A stretch of 36,584 nucleotides of DNA, from positions 1 through 36,584 of the forward strand of contig CADARW010000029.1 of the NCBI GenBank assembly GCA_902790405.1, written 5' to 3'. This document shows, in pieces, positions 16,541 through 27,089 of the stretch. A model generated the notes under the pieces. It saw only the letters and a list, made by a program, of their open reading frames with translations. It was not told the DNA's origin and searched no databases. A program made the translations under genes and the position numbers. The first letter of the stretch is position 1, and every line of letters starts with the position of its first letter. The stretch comes from an uncultured Bacteroidia bacterium (GTDB lineage Bacteria > Bacteroidota > Bacteroidia > Bacteroidales > ML635J-15).

Positions 16541-16565
16541 CAGACTGAAATTCAAACAAATACTG

Positions 16566-16594
16566 AAGCGTAGCCGAAAGGTTACGCTTTTTTT
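16566..16594 (+). terminator. dnaK terminator
   Basis: A 10-bp stem (16566-16575 with 16580-16589, one G-T pair) with a GAAA tetraloop, followed by T residues. Confidence 0.92.
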
Positions 16595-16657
16595 GTACTT
16601 TCTTATTGCTTCTGCAAAAAATTCTATCCCAATTAAATAACATTAGTGGGAAAAATA

Positions 16658-16665
16658 TATCTTTG
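16658..16665 (+). promoter_or_regulatory. Promoter -7 box for the SEFIR gene
   Basis: TATCTTTG, 24 bases before the start codon, matching the host promoter consensus. Confidence 0.55.
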
Positions 16666-16689
16666 TAACGTTCTAAAAGTTATAATAAT

Positions 16690-17982
16690 ATGGCTAAAAA
16701 TTTATGTAAAGAAAAGTTTATCAATACGCCAAATAAAGATACTGATAGTAAAGAACTCAATGGCAAAAGAACAGGAAAATCCCTAACGGTATTTATTTCT
16801 TACTCATGGGATAGCAAAGACCATAAAAAATGGGTGAAAAAATTGGCTGATGATTTACAAAAGCTGGGAGTAGAAGCGTTATTGGATCAATACCAACTGG
16901 CAGGCACACCATTAAATACATTTATGAATGATGGTATAAATATGGCAGACAAAGTATTAATCATAGGAACTCCAGAATACAAAAACAAAGCTGAATCTCA
17001 TAAAGGTGGAACAAATACTGAGGATCAAATTATTAATATCCACATCACTAGGAATTATAACGATCCTAAATTTATCCCTATTTTGCGTAGTGGAACTTTC
17101 GAAACATCATTTACAGATTTGGTTGGGAATAGAAAAGGATTTGATTTTACAGATGATTTATTATATAATGATACACTAGAAGATTTGTTTCAAAATTTAT
17201 CAAGTAGAAACAATTCTACAAGGAAAAAACTAACGTCATCGTCTCAAGAAACATATCAAAAAAATCGCCACAAACTAAGAGATCTGTTCGTTTCGATTTA
17301 TATTCCATACTTCACTAATTTGTTTAATAAACTTGAAATTAGCAACTATAAATATTGGTCTTATATGATTGCCGTCTCAGGAGAAATGGAGATTTCATAT
17401 AAAAAATATTTCGAATTAAAAGATTTTATTGATTTTTGCGATAGTTGCCAAAATCATACAGAGTTTAAAGAGTATTACAACCTAACCATGTGCTTACAAG
17501 AGGTTCTAAAAGACATGTTCAAAATATTTGATTTACATTCTGTTATGATAGGCAAAGAAGGATTTAGATATCATAAATATTACAAGGATCATCCATGGGA
17601 TCCAGAACTAAACCCAATTGAAGAAAAAGAATATGAGGATGAAATATTGCTTATGGGAGATTTAGTCTTTGAATTTACAAGGATAGCAAATTTACTTCTT
17701 GAAAGAATTAGAATCTATGAGCCTAGCTTTATGGCTCAATACGGCATATTAACAATTAAGGATTCGCCTAATCCCAAATCGCAAATTGTTTATAAACCAC
17801 AAGAAAAATCCGATTCCCCATATCCTGGGCTTCTGCCATTTTTAAACAAAAAAATGACACGAACACATCACTATAAAGAAGTGGATTTGTATAATTCATT
17901 AAAAATGAAATTAAATCTTTCTGACATTGAATATGTTCATAATAATGATCAAATAAATAGTCGACAAAAAAAAAATTATTGA
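16690..17982 (+). CDS. SEFIR/TIR-domain protein, truncated by a frameshift
   Basis: A protein of 430 residues as read. Residues about 31-135 form a SEFIR/TIR-type domain: SLTVFISYSWDSKDHKKWV, then LGVEALLDQYQL, MADKVLIIGTPEYKNKA and FIPIL. Bacterial SEFIR and TIR proteins often act in anti-phage defence, signalling or degrading NAD; catalytic activity cannot be judged here. The remaining ~290 residues are helical and unrecognised. At 17966-17975 a run of ten A residues shifts the frame and the protein ends at TGA 17980-17982. With nine A residues it would continue into a winged-helix domain ending at 18139. AT-rich, unlike dnaK. It has its own promoter box, so it is not in one operon with the methylase. 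Confidence 0.85.
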   Translation: MAKNLCKEKFINTPNKDTDSKELNGKRTGKSLTVFISYSWDSKDHKKWVKKLADDLQKLGVEALLDQYQLAGTPLNTFMNDGINMADKVLIIGTPEYKNKAESHKGGTNTEDQIINIHITRNYNDPKFIPILRSGTFETSFTDLVGNRKGFDFTDDLLYNDTLEDLFQNLSSRNNSTRKKLTSSSQETYQKNRHKLRDLFVSIYIPYFTNLFNKLEISNYKYWSYMIAVSGEMEISYKKYFELKDFIDFCDSCQNHTEFKEYYNLTMCLQEVLKDMFKIFDLHSVMIGKEGFRYHKYYKDHPWDPELNPIEEKEYEDEILLMGDLVFEFTRIANLLLERIRIYEPSFMAQYGILTIKDSPNPKSQIVYKPQEKSDSPYPGLLPFLNKKMTRTHHYKEVDLYNSLKMKLNLSDIEYVHNNDQINSRQKKNY

Positions 17983-18139
17983 CCTTATTGCATCAAATTC
18001 CCAAATTAAAATTACCCAATTAGCCATTAATCTAAATGTTTCAACAAATACCATACGAAGAGATTTGCAAACACTGCAGAATAGAAAAATGATTGCGCGT
18101 ACTGGCAGTCTTAGAAATTGTCATTGGGAAGTATTGTAA
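17974..18139 (+). other. Out-of-frame winged-helix tail of the SEFIR protein
   Basis: Read one base on from the SEFIR frame, about 55 codons follow without a stop: KKIIDLIASNSQ, then ITQLAINLNVSTNTIRRDL, and the ending TGSLRNCHWEVL before TAA 18137-18139. This is a DeoR-like helix-turn-helix followed by the GS...W wing often found at the end of defence and AAA proteins. It has no start codon of its own nearby. It is best read as the true C-terminus of the SEFIR protein, reached by slippage on the ten-A run or separated by a mutation or sequencing error. Confidence 0.75.
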
Positions 18140-18213
18140 CATATACCTGGTTCATAACCCAACATCATGCGAATGAAAATCAGCTGGAGACCCCCAAAAA
18201 ACAAATCTGTGAC

Positions 18214-18249
18214 AAAGGTGCATATTATATTATTAGTGTGCACCTTTTT
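18214..18249 (+). terminator. Rho-independent terminator
   Basis: The arms AAAGGTGCA (18214-18222) and TGCACCTTT (18239-18247) are followed by T residues. It lies between the SEFIR gene and the methylase operon and shows that they are separate transcripts. Confidence 0.85.
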
Positions 18250-18321
18250 GTTGCATTTTGCGCCCCATCTTTTTGTTCAAAAAATACTCACATGCAAACA
18301 TAAAAACTAAAGATTAATTCT

Positions 18322-18329
18322 TATTTTTG
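18322..18329 (+). promoter_or_regulatory. Promoter -7 box of the methylase-HerA-NurA operon
   Basis: TATTTTTG, 25 bases before the methylase start. Confidence 0.5.
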
Positions 18330-18353
18330 TGCCGATATCGAATTAAACAATAA

Positions 18354-19241
18354 ATGGGACAGGTTTGTAATTACTCACCATTAAGATATCCTGGAGGCAA
18401 GTCTAGGTTATATGATTTAGTCAATGCGTTAATTTCTCAATATGGTGAATCTGTTAATACATATGTTGAACCTTTTGTTGGAGGTGGTGCAATTGCTTTA
18501 GGATTAATTATAAATCACAAAGTAGAAAAAATAATCATTAATGATATTAATGTCGGCGTATATTCATTCTGGAATTCAGTTTGCAACGACACAGAAAACT
18601 TATTGCGACTGATAAGAGAAACCAATATTAACATTAATAGCTTTGATACTCAAAAAAACATTTACAATAACGAAACAGAAGCTTCTTTAGAATTAGGTTT
18701 CGCTACTTTTTTTCTAAACAGAACCAGTTATTCAGGAGTGTTAGGAGCTGGTCCTATTGGTGGATATAAACAAACTGGTAACTTTTTGCTAGACGCTAGA
18801 TATAATCGTAATGATTTAATAAAAAAAATAGAACGCATTGCTCAATACAAATCAAAGATTGAAATACATAATTTAGACATACTAGACTTTATAAAGAAAA
18901 TAGAAAACCGACGAAAAAATATCTTTACATATTTTGATCCCCCATATTTTGTAAAAGGGAAAGCCCTTTATACAAATTTCCTTAGCAAAGAAGATCACCA
19001 AAAAATATATAGTAAAATAAAAAGGATAAAAACACCATGGGTGATTACTTATGATAATGTTAAAGATATTTCAGACATATATAAAGATTACATTCAATAT
19101 GAATTTAGTTTATCATATACTGTAAATCCGAAATCTTGTAGAAAGGCGACAGAACTATTAATTACTAGTGATGTCAACAAACTTAATTCTATTAATGAAG
19201 ATGTATACAAACGAATTGATTTAAAGGAAAAAAAGATATAA
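18354..19241 (+). CDS. Dam-type (D12 class) adenine-N6 DNA methyltransferase
   Basis: A protein of 295 residues. SPLRYPGGKSRL near the N-terminus and VEPFVGGGAIALGL bind S-adenosylmethionine; TYFDPPYFVKG is the catalytic DPPY motif; NRTSYSGVLGAGPIGG is a typical D12-class segment between them. It methylates adenine in a short DNA target that cannot be read from the sequence. No partner restriction endonuclease of a known type is adjacent. Instead HerA-like and NurA-like genes follow at 1 base distance and by overlap, so the methylase probably marks self DNA for those two. The gene is strongly AT-rich, suggesting horizontal origin. Confidence 0.93.
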   Translation: MGQVCNYSPLRYPGGKSRLYDLVNALISQYGESVNTYVEPFVGGGAIALGLIINHKVEKIIINDINVGVYSFWNSVCNDTENLLRLIRETNININSFDTQKNIYNNETEASLELGFATFFLNRTSYSGVLGAGPIGGYKQTGNFLLDARYNRNDLIKKIERIAQYKSKIEIHNLDILDFIKKIENRRKNIFTYFDPPYFVKGKALYTNFLSKEDHQKIYSKIKRIKTPWVITYDNVKDISDIYKDYIQYEFSLSYTVNPKSCRKATELLITSDVNKLNSINEDVYKRIDLKEKKI

Positions 19242-19242
19242 T

Positions 19243-21249
19243 ATGCAAAACATTGTAAATAAAGTCACTTCAGATTCAGATAAGTTAGTTTCATTGATTC
19301 AGACAGAAAACCATGTCGGCTGGATTTATTCAATAGATTACGAAAATGCCCTTGTGCTTACCAATGATGCGTGGAAACAGAAAGTTAACGGTGTTTCTCA
19401 GAATGCATTTTTGATAGCCACGGCGATTGAACCTAATAAATATAATGAAGTTGACGAATTTGACCGCGAGGTAATCCTTTTAAGGGTAAACGGATCTTGT
19501 AAACTTCCGCAAGATGATGATAATATTCGCACAAAACTTGATTCTCTACAAAATAAGACTGCAACTTATACTGCCGAGCAACCTGATGCACTAACCCAAA
19601 ACATATTGCAATACAGCGGTTTGCAATGTAGGGTTTTAGGAACATTCTATATGAAGAATCAAGAGTTGCAATTAGGTTCCGACATAGAAAACTTTTCGTC
19701 TTCACTCACACAGGCAGTATATTTACCCAAGCGTGATGCTCTAAAGACTATTGTAAATTATGTGGATCCGATTCGAAAGAACAAATCCGCAGAAGATTTC
19801 AGGAATATGGGAATTAATCAGAGTGTCGAACCTTTTGAAATAGGGACAATTAGATATACTTCATCAGATAGATTACAAAGGAAAGAGGACCTCGACAAAG
19901 TACCTGTTTCTATTCAACCTGCCGACTTTCTTGCGCGGCGTACTGCCGTTTTGGGTATGACAAGAACAGGAAAGTCAAACATGGTAAAACAGACTATTTC
20001 TGTTGTAAAAGACGTCTCCCGAAAAGTTAAGTTACCAATAGGTCAGTTAATTTTTGATATTAATGGTGAATATGCGAATGCCAACAATCAGGATAATGGT
20101 TCTATTTCCGATATTTTTCAAGATGAATGCATTCGTTATAGAATGATGAAAACTGATGGATTTGAATCACTGCTTACTAATTTTTATGAACAAATAAATG
20201 ATGGATTTCAAATTATTTCTGAAATAGTTAAAGAAGAAAAAACTAGTTCTGCTCAAGACATTATAACTTTTTTGAATGGTTTTTCCTGTGACGAACCAGA
20301 CGAAATTAATCAGAAAAAAAGATATAAAGTTACAATTGCCTTGTATAAAGCTCTGTTATACAAAGCTGGCTTTAAAGTAAAAGGTGATGAAAAAATATAT
20401 TTTGAAGCCAATAAAGACATAATTGAGATAGTCAAAAAAGATCCATCTAAAGGTTTGTCTATTAAAGAAACCTGCGAATGGTTTTCTTCATTACGAGATA
20501 ATGCTGTTTATATGGCAGAAGACGAGAACAATGGCAAAAAACAAAACGAAACAAAGAAACTCTGGCATGAGATGTTAAAATCTTCATCTGGAAAACCATG
20601 GCTTGATGAAGTATGTGTTGCAATGCTTAATATGATTGCGCAAAAGAATTCATCAAACGTTCCAATGTATGGCTATAAATGTCTTATTTCATCCACAGCA
20701 TATCATACAGCAGAGAGAAAATCTCCCGTTTCAAAAGAGATATATGATTTTCTTGTTCAAGGGAAAATTGTAATTTTAGATTTGTCTGTTGGTATCGCAA
20801 CAATGCGTGAAAAAATTAGTAAAGATTTAGCAAAATTCATTTTTACTTCTTCTATGAATATTTTCACTAAAGGAGAACAACCTCCTTTTATAATGATTTA
20901 CATAGAAGAAGCCCATAATTTAATTGGGAAAGGAATGCCTCTAACAGACACATGGCCAAGAATTGCTAAAGAAGGAGCTAAATATAAAATAGGACTTGTT
21001 TATGCGACGCAAGAGGTATCCTCTGTTCATCCTAACATTTTAAGCAATACTGAAAATTGGTTTGTTTCTCATTTGAATAGCGAAAATGAAATTCGCGAAT
21101 TAGATAAATTCTACGATTTTGCAGATTTTCACAAATCTTTACTGCGTGCGCAAGACGTTGGTTTTACAAGAGTAAAGACACTTTCAAGTTCCTTCGTTGT
21201 TCCTGTTCAAATTAATAAGTTTAATCCAGAAGAATGGAGGAATAAGTAA
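19243..21249 (+). CDS. HerA-like hexameric DNA translocase ATPase
   Basis: A protein of 668 residues. The N-terminal ~200 residues look like the beta-barrel domain of HerA/FtsK-type motors. The Walker A motif is GMTRTGKS (about 238-245), followed after one strand by LIFDINGEYAN, and Walker B is FIMIYIEEAHN (about 549-559) with a late segment KIGLVYATQEVSSVHPNIL typical of HerA (DUF87). HerA motors pump DNA and, with the nuclease NurA, resect DNA ends in archaea. In bacteria HerA is also paired with SIR2 or DUF4297 nucleases in phage defence. The start is one base after the methylase stop, and the stop overlaps the NurA start (TAATG). Confidence 0.92.
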   Translation: MQNIVNKVTSDSDKLVSLIQTENHVGWIYSIDYENALVLTNDAWKQKVNGVSQNAFLIATAIEPNKYNEVDEFDREVILLRVNGSCKLPQDDDNIRTKLDSLQNKTATYTAEQPDALTQNILQYSGLQCRVLGTFYMKNQELQLGSDIENFSSSLTQAVYLPKRDALKTIVNYVDPIRKNKSAEDFRNMGINQSVEPFEIGTIRYTSSDRLQRKEDLDKVPVSIQPADFLARRTAVLGMTRTGKSNMVKQTISVVKDVSRKVKLPIGQLIFDINGEYANANNQDNGSISDIFQDECIRYRMMKTDGFESLLTNFYEQINDGFQIISEIVKEEKTSSAQDIITFLNGFSCDEPDEINQKKRYKVTIALYKALLYKAGFKVKGDEKIYFEANKDIIEIVKKDPSKGLSIKETCEWFSSLRDNAVYMAEDENNGKKQNETKKLWHEMLKSSSGKPWLDEVCVAMLNMIAQKNSSNVPMYGYKCLISSTAYHTAERKSPVSKEIYDFLVQGKIVILDLSVGIATMREKISKDLAKFIFTSSMNIFTKGEQPPFIMIYIEEAHNLIGKGMPLTDTWPRIAKEGAKYKIGLVYATQEVSSVHPNILSNTENWFVSHLNSENEIRELDKFYDFADFHKSLLRAQDVGFTRVKTLSSSFVVPVQINKFNPEEWRNK

Positions 21250-22520
21250 TGCCGTACCAGAACGAATTCGCAGATAAGACTTCGCACATTGACATTGTTC
21301 AAAACCCCGATGTTGAAAAGTTTTTAGAAAAATGTCATAAAATAGAAGACTTCAATGGTGAAGATATATCATCGGCAGGACAACAATTCTCGCCGCCTAT
21401 AAATAACTGTTTCCACAAACCTGATAATATCATTTCAATCGATGGCAGTTTCTATGAAGCAAGTAGAAAAAAAGAATACCCTAGCCAAAAAATTGGGTTT
21501 ATTAAAGTCGGTGTAATCTTATTACAAGGGAAATCTTTATCTGCAATTCAAGGTGGTTCAAAATTTGTTGACCCTTATGCAGTTGCAAAAATCAAGGAAA
21601 ATAATGAAGCTTATTCATTCGTGCTACCAAGTACAAATATAGTATATGATGACTGCGAAGATGTTCAAGAAAGTTTTAGAAGGGCATTAGAAGAACAATT
21701 TGACAATTTGCGAGATAAAGCCGACGACCCCAATACTAGTTTGAAAACAACACTTTTCAAAATGGCGTCATATCTTGACGGTTGCGATGCCAATAGAGTT
21801 GTATTATCAAAGTGTCCTTGCTGCAAAGCAACTGACAATATATACATCTACAAAGATGACGAAGCCCCTAAATGTCCTCATTGCGGGAAACGATTGTATT
21901 TAACTGACATATTGAGAGTTTGGGAACAAGTTGCCGATGTAACATCCAATCAAAGCGCATTGACAAGAACAATGAATATTGTTGAACGGCTTTTGGCTAT
22001 TCATTATATTAGGTCAATTGTTGAATCATTGAAAGAATCGTATGCAAATACTTTAGAGAATCTATGCTTTTTCATAGATGGACCATTGGCGGTATTTGGC
22101 GAGCCAGCAAAGTTCCACGCATGCTTTATGAAATACTTGCATGAGTTGAATCAGACTATGCGCAGTCTTAATAAATCTGACATTCTGATGATCGGGATTC
22201 AAAAATCTGGCGCTGTTAATGATTACCTCAATTTGATAAAAGATTACATCAGAAACGGCGAAGTTTATTGTTTGTCTGATGAAATCAGGAATAAATATGT
22301 AACATTTAGTAAAAACGCCGCAAGTGACACCTTTGGAAAGGAAACATATTTTGGACAAGATTTTTTGTACAAAAATAAGAAAGGTAATGTATTTGTATTC
22401 AATGTACCATATCCATTTGAAGAGAAATCAAAAGTTGCGAATTTTAAAATCGAGAAATCCAATATAGCAAATTACAAAAACATCAAAATATATACAGACT
22501 TATTGGATGATCAGTTTTAG
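21249..22520 (+). CDS. NurA-domain nuclease with zinc ribbon
   Basis: A protein of 423 residues. The NurA core is split: the first acidic motif is IISIDGSFYEASR (Asp65), the second FFIDGPLAVFG (Asp277), and a late segment has MIGIQKSGAVNDYL. These Asp residues bind Mn ions in NurA nucleases, which have an RNase H-like fold and act on DNA ends. Between the two motifs lies a zinc-ribbon insert with Cys189/Cys192 and Cys209/Cys212 (CPCC...CPHC), not found in the short archaeal NurA. The start overlaps the HerA stop by one base, so the motor and nuclease are translationally coupled and probably form one complex. It closes the operon. Confidence 0.9.
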   Translation: MPYQNEFADKTSHIDIVQNPDVEKFLEKCHKIEDFNGEDISSAGQQFSPPINNCFHKPDNIISIDGSFYEASRKKEYPSQKIGFIKVGVILLQGKSLSAIQGGSKFVDPYAVAKIKENNEAYSFVLPSTNIVYDDCEDVQESFRRALEEQFDNLRDKADDPNTSLKTTLFKMASYLDGCDANRVVLSKCPCCKATDNIYIYKDDEAPKCPHCGKRLYLTDILRVWEQVADVTSNQSALTRTMNIVERLLAIHYIRSIVESLKESYANTLENLCFFIDGPLAVFGEPAKFHACFMKYLHELNQTMRSLNKSDILMIGIQKSGAVNDYLNLIKDYIRNGEVYCLSDEIRNKYVTFSKNAASDTFGKETYFGQDFLYKNKKGNVFVFNVPYPFEEKSKVANFKIEKSNIANYKNIKIYTDLLDDQF

Positions 22521-22849
22521 CGCACAAATATACTGCAATAAGTTTGGCTCCAGGAAGCAAAGTATTAGATTTGCTCTCAAAAAGCAAAATTGTGTAATAA
22601 AAGCAGTTCCCTTGCTCTGCTGAATTTACTGGCTTACCTGTCGTGTCGGATTTGCAACCTTTAGCTCGTTGCCTTTGGCAACAACCCGACACGCTTGAAT
22701 ATCAGCATCTGTAATACACAAATAATTCTCCCGACAAGCACAGGATAAGCAGTGCCCTATGGTGCGAAATACCACGAATTAAATTCTAATAATAATTTTG
22801 GCGCGTTACTAATGTAAAAAACATTATATTTGCACCAAAATTATTTAAT
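22521..22849. other. Gap with dispersed repeat and AbiE promoter
   Basis: No ORF is supported in these 329 bases. An outer stem CGTGTCGG (22642-22649) / CCGACACG (22686-22693) encloses an inner stem GTTGCC/GGCAAC (22668-22673 with 22677-22682) and an inverted copy of the 12-mer GAGCTAAAGGTT (22656-22667). This looks like a dispersed repeat element. A TATATTTG promoter box for the AbiE operon lies at 22825-22832. Confidence 0.6.
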
Positions 22850-23653
22850 ATGACTTTACTGAAATGGATAAGGAATAGAGCAGTACATGGAATGCAAGCA
22901 TTCTCTATCGAAGAGATAAGGAGAGCAGGCGTGTGTACTTCTGAACAAATCTTGCAGAATGAACTATCTCTGCTTTCCGCAAACAAGACTATTGCTAATG
23001 TGTATCGCGGATTCTATGTCATTTATCCTACCCATTATGTCCTTCGTGGATCTATACCAGCAACATACTACATTGACCAACTTATGAATTATATGGGTAA
23101 GCCATATTATATAAGTATGCTCAGCGCTGCTGAATTGCTGGGAGCTGCGCACCAACGGCCACAGAATTTTTCTGTGATGACTGTTTTTCCAAAGCGAAGA
23201 GTGGTTTCGAAACGAAATGTGACCGTTGAATGGTTCTACAGGGAAAGAATACCAGAGGAGTGCATCATTACAAAAAATACGGAAACAGGAACCATACGCA
23301 TTTCAAATGCCCTGCTTACTGCAGTTGACATCATACAGTACCAGCAACACATAGGAGGCCTTTCGCGTGCAACTACAATTCTTGAAGAATTGACTGAACA
23401 AATTGACATTACAAAGGATTTCAAGCTGCTGGCTCCGTATGTAAAAACCGTTGTGTGGCAGCGTTTGGGATATTTGCTAGAGAACATAGTCGGAGAAAAG
23501 GAACTCTCCGACAAACTGTACAATCAATTGCAAACATCTGCAATCCATATTCAGTATGCACCTCTTAGCACAACGGCAGACAATGAGTACAAGGAACGCG
23601 ACATCCGCTGGAAATTAAACATAAACACAGATATAGAATCAGAGGAACTATGA
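22850..23653 (+). CDS. AbiEi-type antitoxin of a type IV toxin-antitoxin pair
   Basis: A protein of 267 residues. The N-terminal ~70 residues form a winged helix (SIEEIRRAGVCTSEQILQNE, then TIANVYRGFYVIYP), followed by the AbiEi domain (YISMLSAAELLGAAHQRPQNF, VEWFYRERIPEE, IRISNALLTAVDIIQYQQHIGG). AbiEi proteins bind the shared promoter to repress it and counter the AbiEii nucleotidyltransferase. The pair stops phages by abortive infection. The start codon follows a TATATTTG box by 17 bases. The stop overlaps the toxin start (ATGA), the usual layout of this system. Confidence 0.92.
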   Translation: MTLLKWIRNRAVHGMQAFSIEEIRRAGVCTSEQILQNELSLLSANKTIANVYRGFYVIYPTHYVLRGSIPATYYIDQLMNYMGKPYYISMLSAAELLGAAHQRPQNFSVMTVFPKRRVVSKRNVTVEWFYRERIPEECIITKNTETGTIRISNALLTAVDIIQYQQHIGGLSRATTILEELTEQIDITKDFKLLAPYVKTVVWQRLGYLLENIVGEKELSDKLYNQLQTSAIHIQYAPLSTTADNEYKERDIRWKLNINTDIESEEL

Positions 23654-24453
23654 TAAACAGAAACGCCATACAGCAATGGAGTGAACATGCTCCGTGGATT
23701 GAAAATGCACAAATAGAACAAGACCTGATAATATGCCGAGCTTTGGTTGCAATTTTCAGTGATGAGTTTCTTGCTTCCCAATTGGCTTTTCGCGGAGGCA
23801 CTGCACTGCACAAACTTTACTTGTCTCCACAACCACGCTACAGCGAGGACATCGACTTGGTTCAAATTAATCCAGGTCCAATTAAACCAATAATGTATAG
23901 GCTCGGAGAAGTGCTTGATTTCCTGCCTGACAGGACTACAAAACAAAAGCGGTACAATAATACGATGTATTTCCGTATGGAATCTGAAATACCACCGACG
24001 ATACCCATACGCCTGAAGATTGAAATCAACTGCTTCGAACATTTCAATGTGCTGGGACTGACAAAGATTCCGTTCTGCATTGAAAACTCATGGTTTTCTG
24101 GAGCTGCGCAAATTACTACATATCATTTCGAAGAACTTCTTGGAACAAAACTCCGTGCACTTTATCAACGCAAGAAAGGCCGTGACCTGTTTGACCTTTA
24201 CATTGCTTTGCAACAAAAAGAAACAGATGTGGACAAAGTTCTGAAATGCTACAGGGAGTATATGGAATTTGTAGTTGGCAAAGCTCCATCATACAAGCAA
24301 TACGTCAACAATATGGAAGAAAAAATGAATGACAGAGAGTTTTTAGATGACACTCACGCCCTTTTGCGACCAAACATTGAATTTAAACCAGCGGATGCAT
24401 ATAAGCAGATATTCAAAACATTCATTGACAAAATGGAAGGCAAAAGAGATTAA
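23650..24453 (+). CDS. AbiEii-type nucleotidyltransferase toxin
   Basis: A protein of 267 residues of the DUF1814/AbiEii family. LAFRGGTALHKLYL and RYSEDIDLVQ supply the GG(T/S) and DxD residues of the nucleotidyltransferase active site; GTKLRALYQRKKGRDLFDLYIAL carries the later KxxAlxxRxxxRDlfDl-like motif. Related toxins (AbiEii, MenT) transfer nucleotides to RNA targets such as tRNA ends and halt translation. It overlaps the AbiEi stop by four bases, so the two are translationally coupled. Base composition is closer to the host than that of the methylase operon. Confidence 0.93.
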   Translation: MINRNAIQQWSEHAPWIENAQIEQDLIICRALVAIFSDEFLASQLAFRGGTALHKLYLSPQPRYSEDIDLVQINPGPIKPIMYRLGEVLDFLPDRTTKQKRYNNTMYFRMESEIPPTIPIRLKIEINCFEHFNVLGLTKIPFCIENSWFSGAAQITTYHFEELLGTKLRALYQRKKGRDLFDLYIALQQKETDVDKVLKCYREYMEFVVGKAPSYKQYVNNMEEKMNDREFLDDTHALLRPNIEFKPADAYKQIFKTFIDKMEGKRD

Positions 24454-24800
24454 CAGAAACTATTAGTTACATAACCGCATTCAGCATAATAATAAAAGAT
24501 GAAGATGTCGCCTACAACACATCAACTGTTCACCAACTGTTCACCAACCTGTCTACACAAGATAAATCTTTGATAATAAATTTAAAAGAACAGCAATTAT
24601 CGACATCGGAACTTCAACTGTTCACCAACTGTTCACCTCAAAGCAAACAGCTTTTTATAAAGCAGGTCATCACTCCAAATATAGAGAATGGTATTATTGC
24701 TATGACACATCCCGAAACGCCACATCATCCACGGCAAAAATACTATCTAACAGAACTTGGATTAAAAATTCTAGAAATGCTACAAAACAACAAACAATAA
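24454..24800 (+). pseudogene. C-terminal remnant of a winged-helix (RecG/AlbA_2-like) protein
   Basis: An open frame without a good start codon runs through the AbiEii end and this stretch to TAA at 24798-24800. The last ~60 codons (FIKQVITPNIENGIIAM, then THPETPHHPRQKYYLTELG) resemble the winged-helix end of ATP-binding/AlbA_2 or RecG-like proteins, which often read IEMTIPDKPxSxNQKYRLT. Upstream it contains two blocks with the words CAACTGTTCACC repeated, coding for QLFTN twice. The ATPase and DNA-binding parts are missing, so this is likely the tail of a deleted gene. A short functional protein starting at TTG 24570 cannot be excluded. Confidence 0.45.
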
Positions 24801-25047
24801 GGTGCCAACAGAAATATGACATATCAACTAGCAAAAAAATAAAGTATTAACCAAATCCACACAACGAGTAGAAAATCTATTTAAACCAATTTATATTACC
24901 TTTGCAAAGCAACTAAGGGATAAAAACATCGGGTATGGAATCAAATTGTGCAATTGGGAACTGCACAATTTTCATATTTTGGCGGTGTAAAATTTTGTAA
25001 TGGCGGTGTAAAATTGTAATTTTGGCGGTGTAAATTTTTACTGGAAA
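24801..25047 (+). promoter_or_regulatory. Promoter region of the fic gene with direct repeats
   Basis: A TACCTTTG box lies at 24897-24904. An inverted repeat with 9-base arms (24943-24951 and 24963-24971) follows. Then come three direct copies of GGCGGTGTAAA at 24981-25035, about 22-24 bases apart, ending just before the fic start. A similar word, ATGGTGTAAATTTTCACTGG, appears after fic at about 26051-26070. These look like operator repeats lying in the leader, perhaps bound by the winged helix of the Fic protein itself. Confidence 0.6.
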
Positions 25048-25998
25048 ATGGAGAGGAAAGAATTACAGGACAAACTGTTGGAGTGCGAAAAACTGCAGCA
25101 ACAACTGTGGGCATATCGCCCACTTTCGGCAGAAACGCTCAAATCGCTTCGCGAATATTACAGAATCGGTCTCACCTATACGAGCAACGCCATCGAGGGC
25201 AACAGCCTTACCGAATCGGAAACCAAGGTGGTGATTGAGGACGGCCTTACACTCGAAGGAAAACCTCTAAACGACATTTTCGAGGCGGTAGGACACGCCA
25301 AGGCATACGACTATATGTACGCCGTCAGCCACGATTCGCCAATTACCGAAGATATTGTCTGCAATTTGCACAGACTCTTCTATCAGCAGATAAACCCCGA
25401 AAATGCAGGCAAATACCGCAGTGTACCCGTATTTATAAGCGGAAGTAAATACGCAGTTGCTCCTGCCGCAGAAATCTCTAAACGAATGCAACAGCTTTTG
25501 CATTGGTACAATTCGCACGAAGGGAAAATGCACCCAGTAACACTAGCGGCCGAACTGCACAAACGATTTGTTTTCATACATCCGTTTATCGACGGCAATG
25601 GCCGTATGGCACGCCTGCTTATGAATCTCGCACTTATGCGAAACGACTACAATATAGCCATAATACCTGCTATTTGCCGTGCCGAATACATATCGGCGCT
25701 TGAACTTGCACATACAGATGACACTGTTTTTCATGCCTTCATTGCCGACCGCGTGATGATGACACATATGGACATATTAAGGCTGTTCAGAGAAAACGAA
25801 CCTGCACAGGAAAAAATGCCGTTCGACCAAATGCTGCTGCAGACAATAACACACAATCCAGGACTTAACGCACCAAAATTGTCAGAACGCCTAGGCAGAA
25901 GTCTTCGCACAACACAACGGTACATAAAGACCTTATCCGAGAAACGACTTATCGAATTTCGCGGTGTTGCAAAAAATGGAGGCTACTTCGCGTTATAG
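25048..25998 (+). CDS. Fic-family AMP-transferase with C-terminal winged helix
   Basis: A protein of 316 residues. The Fic motif HPFIDGNGR is at 178-186. The inhibitory helix with (S/T)xxxE(G/N), here SNAIEG (46-51), lies N-terminal, which makes it a class II Fic protein able to hold itself inactive. The C-terminal ~60 residues (NAPKLSERLGRSLRTTQRYIKTLSEK) form a winged helix for DNA binding. Such enzymes transfer AMP from ATP to protein side chains; the target is unknown. Bacteroidetes carry many copies. The promoter region holds three GGTGTAAA repeats that could be its own operators. Composition is like the host. Confidence 0.93.
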   Translation: MERKELQDKLLECEKLQQQLWAYRPLSAETLKSLREYYRIGLTYTSNAIEGNSLTESETKVVIEDGLTLEGKPLNDIFEAVGHAKAYDYMYAVSHDSPITEDIVCNLHRLFYQQINPENAGKYRSVPVFISGSKYAVAPAAEISKRMQQLLHWYNSHEGKMHPVTLAAELHKRFVFIHPFIDGNGRMARLLMNLALMRNDYNIAIIPAICRAEYISALELAHTDDTVFHAFIADRVMMTHMDILRLFRENEPAQEKMPFDQMLLQTITHNPGLNAPKLSERLGRSLRTTQRYIKTLSEKRLIEFRGVAKNGGYFAL

Positions 25999-26096
25999 TT
26001 TCGCCTATCTCCCCCCAATGTTGTCTATATTTACACAAATTCCATATTTTTATGGTGTAAATTTTCACTGGCATATAGGAACTAGAAAATTTATTG

Positions 26097-26104
26097 TATC
26101 TTTG
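26097..26104 (+). promoter_or_regulatory. Promoter -7 box of the InlB-like lipoprotein gene
   Basis: TATCTTTG, 25 bases before the start, with a further GGTGTAAA word at about 26053-26060 upstream. Confidence 0.5.
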
Positions 26105-26129
26105 TCGCTCACAAAAAAAATAAAGTACG

Positions 26130-27089
26130 ATGAAAAGATCATTATTTCTATTATTCGCCATCATTTCTGTAGCAGGAATGATAGCAACAAACGGTTGCAA
26201 GACCGACGTGAAAACTTATACGGTAACTTTCGATGCCAACGGCGGCGAAGGAAACATGGATACACAATTGTTCACCGAAGATTACGAAAAAGCGCTTAGC
26301 GCCAACAAGTTTACTCGCGAAGGCTATTCGTTCGCAGGTTGGAACACAATGCGCGACGGCACTGGCACCGCCTACACCGACCAGCAGAAGATAAAGGTGG
26401 TTGCCGACATGACACTCTACGCACAGTGGAACGAAGAACGCCCAGTAACCATGCACAACGGTCACGAATACATCGACCTTGGATTGCCAAGCGGAAACAT
26501 GTGGGCAACCTGCAACATAGGCGCCGATGCCCCCGAAGCAGCCGGAAACTATTATGCATGGGCTGAAACAGCGCCCAAACAGACTTATACCACCGAAAAT
26601 TACCCATATATACGCCTTGTGGTAGAAGGTGAAGATACTCTTCGAAAGCTTACAAAGTACTGCTCACAGAGTCCTTTCGGCTACGAAGGTTTTAGCGACG
26701 ACCTGACTAGCCTTTTAGCAGAAGACGATGCTGCAACAGTAAACTGGGGCGGCAAATGGAAAACGCCATCGGAAGAAGATTATAATGAATTGTTTGAAAA
26801 TTGCACAATAACAACAGATACCATAAACAATGTGGTAGGACTTACATTTAAGGCCACAAACGGGAACTCGATATTCATGCCTGCCGTCCGCTACTATTCT
26901 GATGAAGGTCTAGCCGATTATGCATGTGGTTGTTACTGGACAAGTACGCTGGCAACAGATATAAGCTCTACAGACCCGACTTGTGCTTTTCATTGCTCTT
27001 TGCGTCCCGAATACGAATATGCAGAAGTGTACCCATGGTCTCGCGAGTGCGGCATGCCTGTGAGAGCAGTATGCAAGATTAGCGAATAA
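26130..27089 (+). CDS. Surface lipoprotein with Listeria-Bacteroides repeat domain
   Basis: A protein of 319 residues with an N-terminal lipoprotein-like signal (about residues 1-22; Cys23 follows TNG). Residues about 29-92 are an InlB B-repeat/Listeria-Bacteroides repeat (YTVTFDANGGEG ... FAGWNTMRDGTGTAY ... MTLYAQW). The rest, from HEYIDLGLPSGNMWATCNIG through YYAWAETAPK, WGGKWKTPSEEDYNEL and the ending YWTSTLA...VRAVCK, is a domain common in Bacteroidales exported proteins, related in pattern to Fibrobacter major-paralogue/DUF1566-type domains. Both domains are thought to serve surface binding. It is the last intact gene before the duplicated dnaK tail. Confidence 0.85.
   Translation: MKRSLFLLFAIISVAGMIATNGCKTDVKTYTVTFDANGGEGNMDTQLFTEDYEKALSANKFTREGYSFAGWNTMRDGTGTAYTDQQKIKVVADMTLYAQWNEERPVTMHNGHEYIDLGLPSGNMWATCNIGADAPEAAGNYYAWAETAPKQTYTTENYPYIRLVVEGEDTLRKLTKYCSQSPFGYEGFSDDLTSLLAEDDAATVNWGGKWKTPSEEDYNELFENCTITTDTINNVVGLTFKATNGNSIFMPAVRYYSDEGLADYACGCYWTSTLATDISSTDPTCAFHCSLRPEYEYAEVYPWSRECGMPVRAVCKISE

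Follow-up and report, generated by a model that had tools for sequence, protein, structure and literature searches.

The window analysed here, a stretch of 36,584 nucleotides corresponding to contig C29, comes from a draft assembly that totals 2.75 Mb, is split into 229 contigs and is about 94% complete. On its forward strand, positions 16690 to 17982 encode a protein of 430 aa consisting of a SEFIR domain and a middle domain. Close to the 3' end of this gene a run of ten A residues (17966-17975, + strand) is directly followed by the bases TTATTGA, the last three of which (17980-17982) form the early stop codon. According to the initial annotation, the reading frame ended 7 bases after the run, and with nine A residues it would continue for about 55 codons into a well-formed winged helix. 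The coordinates and the arithmetic of this prediction were correct, and the tail was confirmed as well: the +1 frame is open up to a TAA stop at 18137-18139, and its translation matches the Pfam families HTH_DeoR (1.7e-11) and HTH_11 (5e-7). The winged helix as a whole occupies 17953-18139 of the + strand, with the residues INSRQKK in frame 0 (17953-17973) and the rest in the +1 frame (17975-18136). Upstream, the transcription unit is limited by the terminator of dnaK (16565-16590, + strand), found by terminator scan and folding. The same scan gave no terminator between 17982 and 18139, and a hairpin resembling an intrinsic terminator, with a U-rich 3' arm, is located past the winged-helix stop (18208-18255, + strand; fold of -23.8 kcal/mol, z -6.5). 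Since the terminator follows the stop of the tail and not the early stop, the gene is laid out to end at 18139.

The SEFIR/TIR domain covers residues 33-168 (16786-17193, + strand) and was recognized by Pfam as TIR_2 (3e-15) and SEFIR (5e-13), as well as by the PADLOC model bSEFIR (PDLC03957; 153 bits, 4e-45). Its structure was modelled with a pLDDT mostly above 90, and the best match in the PDB was the prokaryotic SEFIR structure 5y8e (also 5y8f). Glu111 is invariant in 16 aligned SEFIR proteins and is likely the catalytic residue, by comparison with TIR NADases; the domain is presumably an NAD-cleaving killing effector. The N-terminal SEFIR domain is what the protein shares with bSEFIR, and on the basis of this similarity the effector chemistry is likely the same. 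The likeness ends there: of the 153.3 bits, 153.1 were already obtained with residues 31-170, the middle domain on its own gave no match to the model, homology is lacking in the C-terminal part, and a winged helix is encoded here. Whatever the A run does, this architecture is outside the known bSEFIR model.

The middle domain (residues 203-404; 17296-17901, + strand) gave no significant match in Pfam, PADLOC or PDB. Profile matches were obtained with G463 (5e-62), G584 (1e-42) and G738 (1e-35), and also with L003, one of the HNH proteins found in four genomes across the phylum (L003, L055, L056 and L057). In these, the C-terminal half is homologous to the middle domain, with 23-28% identity and strong profile matches. 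An HNH part resembling the PADLOC effectors PDC-M68A and SAVED-HNH replaces the SEFIR domain, and the proteins stop after the middle domain, with no winged helix. By homology, the middle domain is thus a module common to two kinds of effectors, SEFIR and HNH, which makes it a probable new sensor domain of infection; being absent from Pfam and PADLOC, it would be worth naming. As the 430-aa form follows the same two-part plan as the HNH relatives, this short form may by analogy be a complete effector-sensor protein. The structure model was built on SEFIR rows only and had a pLDDT below 50 over most of the middle domain, hence no fold is claimed for it.

The gene is situated in a region that is variable among close relatives. 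Sister genomes whose DnaK is 99-100% identical carry different cargo in the interval from dnaK to the gene at 26130 (window positions 16541-26130; sister loci L217-L226). It consists of Wadjet in G023, type I restriction in G016 and G022, AbiE alone in G006, Fic in G002 and G007, and PADLOC candidate genes in G005 and G015. The cargo of the present genome comprises SEFIR, a D12 methyltransferase, a HerA-like ATPase, a NurA-like protein (with a weak NurA match), AbiEi/AbiEii and Fic. Judged by this gene content, the gap is a defence hotspot of the genus, and an anti-phage role of the SEFIR gene is predicted as likely because of its location there. The D12 adenine methyltransferase (349 bits to PADLOC PD-Lambda-5_B), the HerA-like ATPase and the NurA-like protein form a tight three-gene operon at 18354-22520, adjoining the SEFIR gene. 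After AbiEii, the segment 24474-24968, including a 3' gene remnant, is 97% identical to a segment of G022 (L226, 8868-9363) that is also located in the dnaK hotspot of that genome. This likeness indicates that gene debris passes between species.

When 26 genomes of the genus were searched with the read-through protein, the same winged helix was found as the C-terminus of many other proteins, among them proteins with SLFN_AlbA_2 and HATPase_c_4 domains. In these genus relatives the family starts with a signature close to L-T-E-R-Q-K-K-I-L, and the family alignment passes straight through the A tract (INS-RQ-KK|IIDLI against LTE-RQ-KK-ILSLI). Frame 0 reads I-N-S-R-Q-K-K as far as the run, beyond which the +1 frame reads K-K-I-I-D-L-I; the signature is split at the A run and nowhere else. 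As its two halves sit in frame 0 and in the +1 frame on either side, the break corresponds exactly to an insertion or deletion within the run. As in genes of the tssM1 type described below, the rest of a known domain is encoded in the alternate frame. Its third-position GC content (0.24) is close to that of the SEFIR ORF (0.25) and is set apart from the value of 0.38 in the other two frames. In a simple shuffle, the 54 codons of the tail would be open by chance in about 1% of cases, a figure that the domain match makes irrelevant. The winged-helix assignment rests on Pfam and the family alignment, and from the architecture we infer that the tail has an accessory role in DNA binding or regulation. 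Neither the tail nor the middle domain was clarified by structure prediction; a single-sequence model of the tail gave one long helix, which is implausible for the family, and was discarded. Independent translation of the tail was also set aside, as its start carries no ATG, GTG or TTG.

A comparison of run length in relatives had been called for by the initial annotation, and it showed no conservation of the long A run among relatives of the tail. In 13 tail relatives with comparable residues, at most six A residues are present at the equivalent site, and only four in those reading R-Q-K-K-I. The SLFN_AlbA_2 proteins, which share the C-terminal position of the winged helix and its L-T-E-R-Q-K-K-I start with the SEFIR gene, have no long A run at this site; the SEFIR gene, in turn, encodes neither an AlbA_2 nor a HATPase_c_4 domain.

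The length of the run was changed in silico. Nine or 12 A residues gave products of 482 and 483 aa with the winged-helix tail, ten or 13 gave 430 and 431 aa, and 11 gave 444 aa with a different short end and no winged helix. Different tract lengths thus yield different products, as in phase-variable loci. The ORF strongly prefers A-rich codons (AAA:AAG 42:4; CAA:CAG 14:0), so that nine A residues at Q-K-K-I (CAA AAA AAA ATT) are expected without design. From codon use, the A run would need no functional reason and only the tenth A is odd. With nine A residues, the intact gene would be predicted to encode 482 aa in the order SEFIR, new middle domain and winged helix.

All 90 runs of at least nine A or T residues in the genome, 18 of which have a length of at least ten, were inspected. 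They are mostly outside genes, as expected if such runs are slippery (PMC1088944). Seven are coding, and six of these are in frame (lengths 9, 9, 9, 11, 16 and 17), the run of the SEFIR gene alone being out of frame. A T17 and an A/T run of 16 in the same genome (L094, run at 1599 of contig C77, and L097, run at 1581 of contig C92, respectively) are in frame within apparent genes. L104 carries a relative of the L094 gene that has a T11 run elsewhere in the gene and whose equivalent of the T17 stretch is not a homopolymer. An A10 run flagged as a break (L092) turned out to be an ordinary intergenic gap between two genes.

No close orthologue of the whole protein was found in IMG/VR, GTDB representatives, plasmids or phages. 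No orthologue, whether carrying the tail or lacking it, turned up in the searched genomes of the genus, order, class and phylum or in the plasmid, phage and viral collections. Scanning genome contigs on the basis of SEFIR returned 27 SEFIR proteins, none of which had the middle domain or the same winged helix. DNA searches around the A run gave no second copy and no length variant in the collections searched, in which the species is known from one genome. The age and the direction of the change in the A run are accordingly read from the domain signature alone.

The reading that we favour, at a probability of roughly 0.5, is that of a recent and reversible slip, in which a natural nine-A stretch gained one A residue in a gene for a protein of about 482 aa. 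The gene would have been built for one such protein, in which a SEFIR effector is followed by the middle domain as sensor and by the winged helix at the C-terminus, and the stretch CAA AAA AAA ATT (Q-K-K-I) would have gained its tenth A in the sequenced population. The main product would then be the 430-aa protein of SEFIR and middle domain without the winged helix, and small amounts of the long form would arise by polymerase slippage. The middle domain would sense infection and the SEFIR domain would kill. Loss of the winged helix would leave a usable two-domain core, comparable to the HNH relatives. The undecayed tail points to a recent slip, and the lasting hypermutability of the tract to one that is easily reversed.

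The strongest competitor, which we regard as unlikely but as deserving serious weight, is an assembly or sequencing error: the cell would have nine A residues and an ordinary single-frame gene for SEFIR, middle domain and winged helix. The draft state of the genome, with its 229 contigs, and the tail without decay are in line with this. For four of the nine runs of at least 11 residues, a contig end is no more than about 60 bases away, which suggests that run length is difficult for the assembly. On the other hand, none of the nine runs of exactly ten bases is located at a contig end and the six other coding runs, of 9 to 17 residues, are in frame, which indicates that run lengths were mostly called correctly and that indels at runs are no general fault of the assembly. 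If the run is an error, the gene is to be annotated as one 482-aa protein.

The initial annotation described a SEFIR protein with a winged helix switched by the ten-A run. The anatomy of this proposal was retained: the SEFIR domain, the slip site and the intact winged helix in the next frame are all present. A dedicated switch is disfavoured, as reaching the tail requires a shift of -1 or +2, tail relatives lack the run and nine A residues are explained by codon use. Two forms of the protein, or phase variation at the run, are possible. It is doubtful that the locus encodes a SEFIR defence protein that carries the winged-helix tail on a fraction of its molecules through polymerase or replication slippage, giving a mix of a long form (restrained or DNA-bound) and a short, free form. 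If the tract does vary, the locus would exemplify the tuning of a bacterial immune effector through homopolymer slippage.

Selected phase variation, in which replication slippage toggles the winged helix between cells and makes the run a contingency locus in a defence gene, appears improbable. In length, the tract is comparable with known contingency loci, each of the two lengths encodes a well-formed product, and for a gene of a defence hotspot turning off a costly protein could pay. Against this, no length variants were present in the collections searched (with one genome of the species), the tract is explained by codon use, and the contig is unbroken at the run, which argues weakly against many lengths in the population.

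Slippage at ten A residues is physically expected. It occurs at A9 in Thermus dnaX, and in many genomes selection is evident at this length of nine (PMC1088944); further cases have been published for genes of endosymbionts (PMC5009743). In tssM1 of Citrobacter rodentium, transcriptional slippage at A11 yields transcripts with 10-15 A residues and about 20% of the long form (PMC4256274). The SEFIR gene resembles tssM1 in having an A run before an early stop, ten residues being within the range of about nine or more of such slippage genes, and a domain that continues in another frame. It differs in that a +1 shift restores the frame of tssM1, both forms of which were proven by experiment, whereas the SEFIR gene is known from sequence alone and its tail is reached by -1 or +2 and not by +1; a +1 shift on poly-A leads to the 444-aa product without the winged helix. 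The E. coli polymerase mostly inserts residues on poly-A, and deletions were absent from the poly-A runs that were tested (PMC6260861); the long form would therefore make up a small share of the product. Programmed transcriptional slippage with a fixed ratio of short to long form, as in tssM1, is consequently judged quite improbable. The ten A residues before an early stop, the intact alternate frame with a known domain and a mechanism that needs no RNA structure agree with it, as does the tssM1 parallel; the need for -1 or +2 and the absence of a conserved run in the tail relatives do not.

Ribosomal frameshifting into the winged-helix tail is very improbable: an A-rich slippery stretch is present at the site, but the usual -1 shift would enter the short frame obtained with 11 A residues and not the winged helix, for which +1 is needed, and no stimulating fold was found (z -0.67). 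Equally hard to credit is that the winged helix is the leftover of an unrelated AlbA-type gene that came to lie beside the SEFIR gene by chance. AlbA-type genes with such a winged helix are common in the genus and present in the dnaK hotspot, and gene fragments are common to different hotspots, as seen for 24474-24968 and G022. However, the SEFIR gene and the first residues of the winged helix are both in frame 0, and it is within the A run that the frame changes. With a chance neighbour or an out-of-frame fusion it would change at the domain joint and not inside the first helix.

Two further observations concern related proteins and the same hotspot. Short SEFIR proteins from other genomes of the class (L059 and L060) have C-termini which, read by eye, look like a different winged helix and gave no Pfam match; they would be in-frame designs of SEFIR plus winged helix if this reading holds. 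Upstream of the Fic gene, positions 24976-25039 contain three tandem copies of a 21-base element (ATTTTGGCGGTGTAAAATTTT), and a similar sequence is present in the hotspot of G022.
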